IMG/VR virus record: IMGVR_UViG_3300040803_000026
Span: 1-40,146 of that record
DNA from: a virus
DNA: 40,146 nt
Direction: 5' to 3' (one strand)
The position numbers were made by a program, and so were the translations under genes. Position 1 is the first letter of the stretch. Each line of letters starts with the position of its first letter. A model generated the notes under the pieces. It was not told where the DNA came from and did not search any database. It saw only the letters and a list, made by a program, of their open reading frames with translations. Of the stretch, positions 13,926 to 28,735 are shown one piece after another.

Positions 13926-14726
13926 ATGGAAAGTTCGAAATCTGTATTTGTATTAGAAAAAACTATTGATGGTGCATGGTTTAAGTTATTATATGAAATA
14001 TATCACTATGGAAGAATAAATAAAATAACATCGGGTTCATATGAAGGAATAAATCGACTTGAATTTGATTACGCGGCTGGTACTATTGAGTATCCTACAA
14101 CTCGTCCATTATCACCTATAATGCCAGAAGGTGTCCCACCTGTTACAACCGATGAAGAAATAGAAAAATATTTTATAAACTATATAATGGATGGATATAA
14201 TTTAGCGGAAAATGAACATTATAGATATGCAACATTTATTACTGGTGGTCCTTATAAATTACCAAAGGTAACTGCGTATGAATTATATGGTACCGATGGT
14301 AAAACTTATAAATATCGTGATATTCATAATCTAACTATGAATGTTCCAAATCAAGTTGAATTTGTGATTAATCATTATAAAGAAAAGGGGTTTGGTAATA
14401 ATCATTGTTATATTACAGTTGGTTATCCAGAAAGTTCATTTGCTTATGCAATTCCTTATACAAATGAAATGGAGAGACAAACATCACCCTGTCTTAGAGG
14501 AATTGATACACATATAAAAAACAATAAACTTCATATGGCGGTTGTGTTTAGATCATGGGATTTATATGGTGCATTTCCTGAAAATATGGGTGGTATTACT
14601 ATGTTGGGTGAGTATATTGCAGACCAACTTGGTATTGAAATGGGACCACTTTCATTTTCTTGTTTAAAATTACATTGTTATGACTTTCAAATTGAAGCAG
14701 TAAAGGCAAGATTAAATATAAAATGA
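13926..14726 (+). CDS. Thymidylate-synthase-family enzyme, archaeal-like form
   Basis: 266 aa, ATG 13926 after AAGGAG. Family motifs: catalytic Cys189 in QTSPCLRG, then FRSWDLYGAFPENMGG (Arg209, Ser210, Asp212, Asn220) and KLHCYDF (His250, Tyr252), the counterparts of the phosphate, folate and ribose contacts of ThyA. Asn220 occupies the position that reads uracil in dUMP enzymes; T4 dCMP hydroxymethylase has Asp there. So dUMP is the likely substrate, methylated or hydroxymethylated with methylene-tetrahydrofolate. The RSWDLYGxFPEN form resembles archaeal-type synthases. Its C-terminal codons are partly duplicated at 15219, see the repeat. Confidence 0.78.
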   Translation: MESSKSVFVLEKTIDGAWFKLLYEIYHYGRINKITSGSYEGINRLEFDYAAGTIEYPTTRPLSPIMPEGVPPVTTDEEIEKYFINYIMDGYNLAENEHYRYATFITGGPYKLPKVTAYELYGTDGKTYKYRDIHNLTMNVPNQVEFVINHYKEKGFGNNHCYITVGYPESSFAYAIPYTNEMERQTSPCLRGIDTHIKNNKLHMAVVFRSWDLYGAFPENMGGITMLGEYIADQLGIEMGPLSFSCLKLHCYDFQIEAVKARLNIK

Positions 14727-14735
14727 CAAAAGTAG
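14696..14735 (+). repeat. Direct repeat A, left copy
   Basis: 40 nt matching 15219-15258 at 37 positions; 14708-14735 is an exact 28-nt match. The left copy covers the last codons of the thymidylate-synthase-family gene plus the start (MTKV) of the DPPY methyltransferase. Confidence 0.9.
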
Positions 14736-15217
14736 AACTTGTTAATACAAATCTTAGAAGATATACATTTCAATCACCAAAAATAAAAGAATGGGTTGAA
14801 TGTAATTCGAAGGGCTATGTGTTAAATTTATTTGCAGGAATAACTAAGTTAAATTTAAACGAAATAAGAAATGACATTCAAGAAGAATCTGACTATAATA
14901 TGGATGCTTTAGATTTTGTTTTATCATGGGAAGGTAAAAAATTTGATACCATAATATTAGACCCACCATATTCATATAGAAAAGCAATGGAAATGTATAA
15001 GGGTAAATATACAAGTAGATTCAAACAAATTGCAGATAATTTAGAGAATATATTAAAACAAGATAGTAAAGTAATATCTTTTGGATATCATTCATCTTTT
15101 ATGGGTAAGAAAAGAGGATTTGATTTAGTAAAATTATGTGTTTTTGCTCATGGTGGTGCTCAACATTGTACTATAGGAATAATAGAACAAAAACCAAATT
15201 TATTATTTTTCAATTAA
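14723..15217 (+). CDS. SAM-dependent methyltransferase with DPPY motif
   Basis: 164 aa, ATG 14723 overlapping the previous stop (ATGA). LNLFAGITKL (residues 34-43) is the SAM-binding motif I, RND and MDALDFV follow, and LDPPYSYRK (about residues 79-87) is the DPPY motif of N6-adenine or related amino methyltransferases. It is short and lacks an obvious target-recognition domain. It probably modifies a base in DNA or RNA. Because it overlaps a thymidylate-synthase-family gene and is flanked by direct repeats including its own start codon, it looks like an inserted cassette. Confidence 0.7.
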   Translation: MTKVELVNTNLRRYTFQSPKIKEWVECNSKGYVLNLFAGITKLNLNEIRNDIQEESDYNMDALDFVLSWEGKKFDTIILDPPYSYRKAMEMYKGKYTSRFKQIADNLENILKQDSKVISFGYHSSFMGKKRGFDLVKLCVFAHGGAQHCTIGIIEQKPNLLFFN

Positions 15218-15218
15218 A

Positions 15219-15258
15219 AGCAGTATAAGAAAGATTAAATATAAAATGACAAAAGTAG
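15219..15258 (+). repeat. Direct repeat A, right copy
   Basis: Second copy of the repeat at 14696-14735, starting 1 nt after the stop codon of the DPPY gene. It carries a relic of the thymidylate-synthase C-terminus (AV-stop-ERLNIK-stop against AVKARLNIK-stop) followed by the DUF4326 start (MTKV). Confidence 0.9.
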
Positions 15259-18836: not shown

Positions 18837-19193
18837 ATGGCAACATTGAGAGAGGCATTTGATGATGTAGTATCAGAGGGAACTGATGCTATTGTTGACA
18901 CTGGTTATAGTAAACTCCCACCTATGTCTGGTGAGGAAATTGCAAAAGAACTAGGTATTACAAGACAAGCTGTATCTCAAACTCTAAAAAGAGCGATGGG
19001 AAAGGCTTTTGAAGAAATGAAAAAAATGAACAAAGATATGGATGCATTTGAAGTAGCCGCAATGATGGCAATGGGTTGGGACGCAGCAAATACTGTAGCA
19101 GAAATGAAGAAATTTTTTACTCTATTTCCACCGAAAATTAGGAGCGAGATTGAACAGGCAGCATCTAAAAGGACAAGAGTTGGAAAGAAATAG
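18837..19193 (+). CDS. Sigma-region-4-like HTH regulator
   Basis: 118 aa from ATG 18837 with TTAAGGAGAAG. The HTH spans about residues 31-52: MSGEEIAKELGITRQAVSQT followed by LKRAMGKAF. This has the pattern of sigma-70 region 4 (binds the -35 element) or a sigma-4-related regulator. There is no region 2, so it is not a full sigma factor. It could be a phage late or middle transcription factor. The C-terminus is helical with DMDAFEVAAMMAMGWD. Ends in TAG. Confidence 0.68.
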   Translation: MATLREAFDDVVSEGTDAIVDTGYSKLPPMSGEEIAKELGITRQAVSQTLKRAMGKAFEEMKKMNKDMDAFEVAAMMAMGWDAANTVAEMKKFFTLFPPKIRSEIEQAASKRTRVGKK

Positions 19194-19341
19194 TATTTAC
19201 TTCCTTTGTATAAAATGTTATAATTGTAAAAAACAAAAAAATGGCAAAATTAAATGTTCTATAGGATATTTCGAAGATATAGTTGAACGAAATTGCGTAT
19301 ATAGTCCATTTGATTTTGATTGTGTTTATTACGAAGGATAG
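19180..19341 (+). CDS. Small Cys-rich protein, start uncertain
   Basis: A Cys-rich ORF (LCIKCYNCKKQ, then KIKCSIG, RNCVYS, DFDCVYY) ending in TAG at 19341. No in-frame ATG exists. TTG at 19180 (AAGGA upstream) or TTG at 19150 (TTAGGAG upstream) are the best starts; both overlap the previous gene. The ATG at 19241 is out of frame. The Cys spacing suggests a zinc-knuckle protein of about 50-64 aa. The promoter at 19196 lies inside either version, so it could serve only downstream genes. Confidence 0.5.
   Translation: MERNSIYFLCIKCYNCKKQKNGKIKCSIGYFEDIVERNCVYSPFDFDCVYYEG
19196..19224 (+). promoter_or_regulatory. T4-early-type promoter
   Basis: TTTACT (19196-19201), 17-nt spacer, TATAAT (19219-19224). 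It likely serves the Mom-like gene and primase. By eye it is the last such promoter until 30701. Confidence 0.72.
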
Positions 19342-19343
19342 GT

Positions 19344-19369
19344 AAATGATTGATTATGATGTGGTTAAT
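19344..19369 (+). repeat. Direct repeat B, left copy
   Basis: 26 nt identical to 20205-20230, covering the start codon and first eight codons (MIDYDVVN) of the Mom-like gene. Confidence 0.92.
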
Positions 19370-20203
19370 GAAAATGTAGAAAGAAAATTGATGAAAAAAG
19401 AGTTAAGTATTTGCGAAGTTGATAAAAGTATAGCAATCGACTTTATACAGAAATATCACTATTCCAAAGTAATGCCCAGTATAAATAAACATTTTTTGGG
19501 TTTATTCTGTGATAATAGTTTAGTCGGTTGCTTAACTTTAGGTTTCGGAACACAACCATTACAAACCATAAATAAGTTATTTCCAGGCTACAAAACAGAA
19601 CATTATTATGAAATTGGTAAGATGTGTATTGATGATGATATGCCAAAGAATACTGGTAGTCAGTTTATATCTTTGGTAAAAAAGTGGATGATAAAAAATA
19701 CCAAAAAAATATTTCTTTATACTTTAGCGGATGGCATCGTTGGTAAAATTGGTTATGTTTATCAAGCATCAAATTTTTATTATGGTGGATTTTTTTGGAC
19801 AGATGTATACATTGGAAGTGATGGAGAAAAAATTCATCCAAGGTCCGCCAAAATTTTATTGAAAGAAAATGCTGAATTTTTAGGTAAAGAAAAGGTTTTT
19901 TGGTTAACACCAGATTTTAACAAAGTAAAAGGAATAAGAAGAATAAGAGGAAAGATGTTTAGATATATGTTACCTCTATATAAGAAAGAAAAGAAAATAT
20001 TAGAAGAAATGGGATGGGTAAAAAATTCATATCCAAAAAGTGATAGTCTTGAATGGAAAGAACAGATAGATAAGGGAAAATATATTAAATTAGATGAAAT
20101 GCCAAAATTTGCATTAGATGTTGTCAATTTTAATTATAAAAATGTTAATGCACATAAGAAAAATATAAGAGGAGTAGAAATATTCTTTTTAAAAGAAAGA
20201 TGA
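19346..20203 (+). CDS. Mom-like DNA-modification protein (GNAT-like), tentative
   Basis: 285 aa from ATG 19346 (AAGGATAGG upstream). After the leader MIDYDVVN, the region ICEVDKSIAIDFIQKYHYSK ... HFLGLFCDNSLVGCLTLGFG resembles the Mom family of phage Mu, GNAT-like enzymes that convert adenine to a carbamoylmethyl-type base and so block restriction. Also EIGKMCIDDDMPKNTGSQFISL is acyltransferase-like. A second ATG (codon 16, MKKELSICEV) may be the ancestral start, because the first eight codons copy the primase start. DNA-modifying function is inferred from family resemblance; other GNAT activities are possible. Confidence 0.6.
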   Translation: MIDYDVVNENVERKLMKKELSICEVDKSIAIDFIQKYHYSKVMPSINKHFLGLFCDNSLVGCLTLGFGTQPLQTINKLFPGYKTEHYYEIGKMCIDDDMPKNTGSQFISLVKKWMIKNTKKIFLYTLADGIVGKIGYVYQASNFYYGGFFWTDVYIGSDGEKIHPRSAKILLKENAEFLGKEKVFWLTPDFNKVKGIRRIRGKMFRYMLPLYKKEKKILEEMGWVKNSYPKSDSLEWKEQIDKGKYIKLDEMPKFALDVVNFNYKNVNAHKKNIRGVEIFFLKER

Positions 20204-20204
20204 A

Positions 20205-20230
20205 AAATGATTGATTATGATGTGGTTAAT
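20205..20230 (+). repeat. Direct repeat B, right copy
   Basis: Identical to 19344-19369; begins 1 nt after the Mom-like stop codon and forms the start of the primase gene. Confidence 0.92.
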
Positions 20231-21259
20231 AAATTTGTATATGAATATTTATCATTAATAACAACAGATAGAAATGGAACACATTGGCACGCTCGTTGTC
20301 CTTTGTGTGGTGATTCAAAAAAGAGTAATAGAAAAAAAAGATTTCATTTAGACTACAACAATGGGAACCCGATATGGAACTGTTTTAATTGTCACCAATC
20401 GGGTTCTTTTTTGAAAATATATGCTGAATTAAAATCTATTTCTATTGAAGATGCAAAAATAGAATTATTTGGTTTCGATACTATTAGAGATAGACTCTCA
20501 AATAGAGAGATATTTCTTAATAATTTGCAAAAGGATAAAAAAATAAATTATGAAAATTTTAATTGGATTCGTGAAAAAAGTATTTCAAGGTTTGAAGAAG
20601 TTTCTGGAATCTTGTGTGTCAGGTATAAAGAAATCCTTGACAAGTTCGTGCGAGATAGAAAAATTTCGACCAATTATGACATTCTTATATGTTATGAGGG
20701 AGATTACAAGAATAGAATCATTGTTCCTGTTATTGATAGAAATGGTAATATTGTATATTTTCAGGCCAGGAGATTACCTGACTCAGATATTCAACCAAAA
20801 TATATAAATCCTAAAGTTGAAAAATCTACAATCATTTTAAATGAAGATAAGTTCGATAGAGATAAAAGTATAGTAATAACAGAAGGTTTACTTGATGCTT
20901 ATACTGTAGGTGATCAAGGAACATCTTGTTTGGGTGGATTTTTTTCCGATGAGTTTATTGGTATTATTTCAAACTATACAAGTAAAAATGTAATACTGGC
21001 GTTTGATAATCCATTTGTTGATAAAACTGGTTATAGAAATATGTTGAATTTTATAAAGGGAAATAGTAAAAGACCAGCAAGTATTTTTAGTAAAAAAGTG
21101 AAATATTTTATACCATCAAAAGACCATATAGATAGTAAAGATATAAATATGATTGATATAAAATACTCCATAAATAATATGTATGAATATATTGTGAAAA
21201 ATTCATATAGCTATATGGAATCATATGTAAAATTAAAAATTGATTTTAATAAGAGGTGA
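20207..21259 (+). CDS. 61: DNA primase, T4 gp61-like
   Basis: 350 aa (T4 gp61 is 342). The N-terminal CHC2-type zinc domain has Cys31, Cys34, Cys59 and Cys62 (CPLCGDSKK ... WNCFNCHQSG). The Toprim domain follows: IVITEGLLDAYT (catalytic Glu) and VILAFDNPFVDKTGY (metal-binding Asp). It makes short RNA primers for lagging-strand synthesis with the phage helicase, which is not in this window. Its first eight codons are duplicated at the start of the preceding gene. The ribosome site is weak (AGAAAGATG). Confidence 0.9.
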   Translation: MIDYDVVNKFVYEYLSLITTDRNGTHWHARCPLCGDSKKSNRKKRFHLDYNNGNPIWNCFNCHQSGSFLKIYAELKSISIEDAKIELFGFDTIRDRLSNREIFLNNLQKDKKINYENFNWIREKSISRFEEVSGILCVRYKEILDKFVRDRKISTNYDILICYEGDYKNRIIVPVIDRNGNIVYFQARRLPDSDIQPKYINPKVEKSTIILNEDKFDRDKSIVITEGLLDAYTVGDQGTSCLGGFFSDEFIGIISNYTSKNVILAFDNPFVDKTGYRNMLNFIKGNSKRPASIFSKKVKYFIPSKDHIDSKDINMIDIKYSINNMYEYIVKNSYSYMESYVKLKIDFNKR

Positions 21260-28492: not shown

Positions 28493-28735
28493 ATGTATAT
28501 AATGAGTACAATGAAAAATTTTAGAACTTTTGAAAAAGATGATAAAGGTAACGAGTTATATCTAACCGATTATAAATGCGATGTTTGTAATAAACCATCA
28601 GAAGTTTATGTGAAACTTGATAACGGCTATCTTGATATCTATATTTGTAAAACTTGTTTATCCAATGGTGAGGATTTGTGGAATAAAACATTCTTGGAAG
28701 AATGTAAAAAAACACGACAGGAAGTAGAAAAATGA
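28493..28735 (+). CDS. Small zinc-finger-like protein, 80 aa
   Basis: ATG 28493 with AAAGGAG 8 nt upstream. CDVCNKP (about residues 29-35) and ICKTCLSNG (about 51-59) provide two CxxC pairs. The last helix is basic/acidic. Function unknown. Its stop overlaps the start of the next CTS-like gene. Confidence 0.65.
   Translation: MYIMSTMKNFRTFEKDDKGNELYLTDYKCDVCNKPSEVYVKLDNGYLDIYICKTCLSNGEDLWNKTFLEECKKTRQEVEK

Follow-up and report, generated by a model that had tools for sequence, protein, structure and literature searches.

PeSL (promoter-early stem-loop) cassettes reportedly provide similar flanks to the accessory genes of T4-like phages, and are said to be able to mediate their gain and loss. 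The internal-protein genes of the T-even phages are said to share an N-terminal leader, and their flanking homologies may reportedly drive shuffling. A strict moron carries a promoter and a terminator of its own. How a tightly packed phage genome can admit new genes and still keep its essential ones intact is a question to which duplication of a start or gene junction would provide a simple answer, one that leaves a readable scar: the newcomer gets a working translation start and that of its neighbour is restored. It would also call for caution in annotation, since the first codons of such genes would not be native. No paper describing start or junction duplication as a phenomenon was found in the literature searched.

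The DNA analysed here (the window) is a virus record of 40,146 nucleotides that is AT-rich (29% GC) and carries T4-like replication genes. Within it a gene of the Mom DNA-modification family, a candidate for carbamoylmethyl-adenine modification, lies between two copies of a 26-nt sequence, the second of which forms the start of the DNA primase gene (Table 1). The nearest described cases are PeSL cassettes and T-even internal-protein loci. As with the PeSL cassettes of T4-type phages (Arbiol 2010; Comeau 2014; cited in PMC4503421), an accessory gene is flanked by similar sequences. The PeSL repeat is however a promoter/terminator cassette present in many copies, whereas here the coding start of an essential neighbour is present in two; judged from its content, the repeat comprises ribosome-binding-site spacer, start codon and coding DNA rather than an early promoter and stem-loop. 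A PeSL-like arrangement was observed at a different Mom locus, L006, where promoter-like TTTACAACTCCTnnATTTTATTGTATAATATTA with a 19-nt exact core is found on both sides of Mom (1600-1680 and 2460-2500). The T-even internal-protein loci (Repoila 1994; cited in PMC12373910) likewise have accessory genes with a shared start and flanking homology, but their leader is a functional capsid-targeting signal found on many genes, while the start here comes from an unrelated enzyme. Like a moron, Mom appears to have been added between core genes at a position that is not conserved, yet it uses the start of its neighbour. A direct repeat of recipient DNA flanking an insert is also reminiscent of the target-site duplication of transposition, but there is neither a transposase nor terminal inverted repeats, and the 26- and 51-nt duplications of the window vary in length and placement. 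A transposon-like element was rejected; only Mom lies between the copies, and the longest inverted match between the edges is 7 nt. The start-associated sequences of PMC7302621 differ in copy number and placement, being conserved in many copies upstream of start codons where this record has two.

Table 1. Positions of the features of the two repeat-flanked loci in the window.
Feature	Position	Strand	Basis
63-aa ORF, left flank of the proposed insertion	19150..19341	+	same place in L003/L004
Shine-Dalgarno-like GAAGGATAGG, end of 63-aa ORF, before left start	19333..19342	+	anti-SD dG -5.7
Left copy of 26-nt repeat, start of Mom fusion ORF	19344..19369	+	exact repeat
15-codon N-terminal add-on MIDYDVVNENVERKL before native Mom start	19346..19390	+	outside Mom HMM match; homologue starts align with Met16
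Native Mom gene (PF25680, phrog_1384)	19391..20203	+	profile matches; homologue alignment
Right copy of 26-nt repeat, primase start	20205..20230	+	exact repeat; native to primase
DNA primase, T4 gp61/DnaG type (phrog_47)	20207..21259	+	phrog_47 E 1.9e-40
Left copy of second repeat: native thyA 3' end + copied DUF4326 gene start	14685..14735	+	comparison with G002
DNA methyltransferase-like gene (phrog_11619) between second repeat pair	14723..15217	+	absent here in G002
Right copy of second repeat: copied thyA 3' end + native DUF4326 gene start	15208..15258	+	comparison with G002

The two copies of AAATGATTGATTATGATGTGGTTAAT are identical over 26 nt, and ungapped extension gives 35 nt at 91%. 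The ATG within each (19346 on the left, 20207 on the right) is followed by the same codons, so that both genes begin MIDYDVVN; the right copy starts one base past the Mom stop codon (20201-20203). The original prediction was correct in its coordinates and codons. No further copy exists in the 40-kb record, even allowing three mismatches over a 21-nt core. Chance origin can be ruled out: 60 simulated third-order Markov sequences gave longest repeats of 16-20 nt, and the expected number of repeats of at least 26 nt is about 1.5e-5. A search of the window for repeats showed that its two longest exact repeats, of 28 and 26 nt, each span consecutive start codons. The geometry of the other pair (14696/15219) had been described as the same, which is true only in part. 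Both pairs indeed span consecutive starts, but they differ in extent and placement: the other repeat, of 51 nt with 28 nt exact, falls for the most part before the start codon, within the 3' end of thyA, and the 26-nt repeat is almost wholly coding.

The left copy opens a frame of 285 codons. Residues 20-231 of its product fit the PF25680 (Mom) profile at E 3.2e-48, scoring 164.5 bits where the cut-off is 27.1 and covering profile positions 2-202 of 202. Alignments of homologues to this frame begin at residues 15-20, and 71 of 80 Mom loci place an ATG at precisely the codon that aligns with Met16, which makes the first 15 codons an add-on. Judged from these alignments Met16 is the native, ancestral Mom start, as had been suggested. 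The downstream gene matches the T4-type primases of phrog_47 and scores above the cut-off for DNAG_N and below that for Zn_ribbon_DnaG. The right copy of the repeat is native to the primase, since that of a relative (L003, below) begins MIRYEVVN.

Repeats of this kind are not general among Mom genes, as most of the 80 loci share only 6-12 nt words between their ends. A 14-nt match in L009/L141 was excluded as a start repeat, since Mom genes usually begin natively with ATGAAATAC (MKY). The sequence AATAAATGAAATAC is found there at the start of Mom and of the next gene (L009 3001, equivalent to L141 3500), and is ambiguous given that MKY is the usual start. A DUF4326 gene is directly upstream of Mom in L007, L008, L011 and L012; the window holds both genes, at 15246 and 19391, but apart.

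Only two IMG/VR contigs share the locus, L003 (G001, 46.5 kb) and L004 (G002, 15 kb), and these are about 99.5% identical over their overlap. The gene order is the same in all three: RNR, an HTH gene, the 63-aa ORF, Mom and primase. The left copy in L003/L004 is AAATGATTAGA, which extends for 11 nt and then diverges, and their primase begins AAATGATTAGATATGAAG. This remnant fits their own primase start and not that of the window; the two primase starts differ at 5 of the 26 nt, and the primase genes are about 23% divergent. In each lineage, then, the left copy agrees with the primase of that lineage. Mom in L003/L004 begins at ATGGGAAAAGAG, the codon equivalent to Met16, and uses this native start; the short ORF that begins at the left ATG is out of frame. 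At the repeat tract the window has 21 nt that are absent from L003/L004, and the identity between its two copies drops from 26/26 to 11/21 immediately beyond the tract.

The ribosome-binding sites follow a consistent pattern. The anti-SD dG before the left start is strong in both lineages (-5.7 in the window, -5.9 in L003/L004), and that before the primase start is weak in both (-0.9 and -0.6). The native Mom start has a weak site in the window (-0.9) and a good one in L003/L004 (-5.3). The simplest reading of the strong left site and weak primase site in both lineages is that the primase probably once had, as its ribosome-binding site, the Shine-Dalgarno sequence now found where the 63-aa ORF ends. 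This supports the earlier suggestion that the newcomer took over the start of its neighbour.

When did Mom arrive? Across most of the native Mom gene the window and L003 agree at about 90% or more of positions, with a dip to 0.83 close to the start; elsewhere the identity is mostly 0.65-0.85, and the jump falls at the edges of the gene. At fourfold-degenerate sites in codons for the same residue the identity is 0.77 for Mom compared to 0.53 for 18 other genes pooled, a value reached in 0 of 20 000 resamples. Purifying selection on the Mom protein was rejected as the cause of the similarity, as thyA has a similar dN and twice the dS. Because of this synonymous similarity and the jump at the gene edges, Mom was probably exchanged or acquired after the lineages of the window and L003/L004 had split. 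Mom does not adjoin primase in T4, nor in the seven less closely related phages in which both Mom and a primase match were found. Had the cassette never been absent, the original prediction would have been refuted; these phages lack Mom next to primase. Among close relatives, however, no empty site came up: searches with the primase (its protein, a two-row alignment, a degenerate DNA pattern), with the upstream HTH gene and with the RNR gene, and searches of bacterial genomes and isolate phages, gave only the two known relatives. The insertion is consequently something that we infer, and so are template switching and translational coupling; the repeat, the add-on character of the first 15 codons, the side to which each sequence belongs and the Shine-Dalgarno strengths are shown.

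On balance we consider it rather probable that Mom entered exactly at the start of the primase by illegitimate recombination, duplicating that start. The most likely route would be template switching during replication, with the nascent strand rejoining the parental template slightly upstream of the point of departure; such rejoining would leave an insert bordered by direct repeats whose length varies. In the lineage of the window at least 26 nt of the primase start would have been duplicated. The copy attached to the upstream gene, together with the original ribosome-binding site of the primase, would now start Mom, and the captured start would give Mom its N-terminal extension of 15 codons. 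Behind Mom, the second copy would preserve the primase reading frame, preceded by a weak ribosome-binding site, and translation of the primase is probably coupled to that of Mom, whose stop codon is 3 nt before the primase ATG. The joined site before insertion is predicted to have been ...TACGAAGGATAGGT running directly into AAATGATTGATTATGATGTGGTTAATAAATTTG.... We favour insertion because of a 26-nt identity far above chance, the native Mom start at Met16, the Shine-Dalgarno pattern at the starts, the left remnants matching each lineage's own primase, the synonymous similarity of Mom and its lack of adjacency to primase elsewhere, and because similar scars flank a methyltransferase at thyA/DUF4326 and another in G009.

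Two observations count against this reading, the failure to find an empty site among close relatives and the left copy of only 11 nt in L003/L004. Were the insertion in L003/L004 the same event as that in the window, the divergence of the lineages (about 23% in the primase) ought to have blurred the 26 nt of the window, and one would have to invoke a later conversion or a separate insertion. The left copies may be either two separate scars, or one old duplication that was deleted in L003/L004 and maintained by conversion in the window. The leader of L003 matches codons 9-15 of its own primase at 14 of 21 nt, with a frequency of 0.0005 in that register; since 57 registers are possible this would favour one old duplication weakly once all are allowed.

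The main rival to insertion is that Mom was already in place, and that ectopic gene conversion, or template switching between the two AAATGATT starts, later put a short tract from the beginning of the primase onto the Mom start, so that the repeat would record conversion and not the insertion. It would account for the sharp edge of the tract, for the match of each left copy to its own primase, and for the exact coincidence of the tract with the 21 nt that the window has in addition to its relatives. We nevertheless regard it as unlikely, because it leaves unexplained the strong Shine-Dalgarno sequence at the left start in both lineages, and the methyltransferase repeat, which duplicates its junction on both sides. 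Mom might instead have replaced the first copy of a tandemly duplicated primase, except for its start. The end product would be identical, and tandem paralogs do exist in a surveyed phage (G014), but an extra step is needed and no further remnant of primase is seen around Mom, making this very improbable.

We give equally little credence to a regulatory element at the starts, for instance an operator to which a translational repressor binds, or a sequence of the start-associated kind. Each copy does span a start codon, and some actinobacteriophages have start-associated repeats (PMC7302621), but the search allowing mismatches found just the pair in the record, and the repeat extends 24 nt into coding sequence. 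Conservation of the repeat between phages, which would have pointed to such an element, is not observed, the relatives retaining 11 nt that match their own primase. An assembly artefact of the metagenomic contig is the least probable explanation of all. The full 26 nt is present in one contig only, but the gene order is shared with two contigs from other metagenomes, and the copy is in frame with Mom, with edges that fit the native Mom start.

The second repeat of the window (51 nt at 88%, with 28 nt exact) flanks a methyltransferase-like gene, and both of its sides can be assigned. The 3' end of thyA in the left copy encodes ARLNIK*, as in G002, while the DUF4326 gene begins MTKVVN in the window and MTKIVN in G002, where that gene is located elsewhere. 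From this comparison it is clearly a duplicated gene junction, clearer than the Mom case, and the earlier proposal of a second example is thereby upheld. At the thyA-side site of G002 (L038 9638-10753) a DruA-like (DUF4338) gene replaces the methyltransferase and DUF4326 genes of the window, which gives this site the appearance of an accessory-gene hotspot.

Does this occur more widely? We surveyed 66 non-redundant phage sources (2.2 Mb) for in-register exact repeats of at least 18 nt spanning two start codons. These were found in 8 of 2601 gene pairs at distance 1, compared with 2 of 23 432 at distances 2-12. Of the eight neighbouring cases, G014 accounts for two, which are paralogs, and G020 for one, a signal-peptide-like start that the genes share; this leaves the two of the window together with G009 (34 nt), L105 (20 nt) and G012 (19 nt). 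The repeat in G009 takes in the final codons of the upstream gene (KSNKFFDL*) and the ATG that overlaps them, and flanks a methyltransferase directly upstream of Mom. Those in G012 and L105 also span stop and start, but are weak because G012 lies among related coiled-coil genes and L105 is of low complexity. The independent cases are therefore few, one strong and two weak. The survey was prompted by the window and most sources were picked for carrying Mom, so it supports a general process and does not prove it. The general mechanism originally envisaged fares accordingly: the repeats do concentrate on neighbouring genes, but the independent cases are few, and no dedicated mechanism is indicated. 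The Mom/primase scar is clear, and there are hints of the same pattern in other phages.

We put forward tentatively, as a possibility we rather doubt, that compact phage genomes gain accessory genes mainly by template-switch insertions that duplicate a gene junction, comprising the upstream stop and downstream start. The reason would be that, where stop and start touch or overlap, junction duplication is the only type of insertion to spare both neighbours; the direct-repeat scar around the insert would also offer a route to its precise loss. If such duplications are indeed the sole inserts tolerated at these sites, as may be the case, their enrichment could come from selection alone. Elsewhere in the window the consecutive genes at 28732 and 29302 begin alike, MRFDNYLKDED and MRFEEHILNED; these may be capsid-targeting-like leaders rather than the scar of an insertion.
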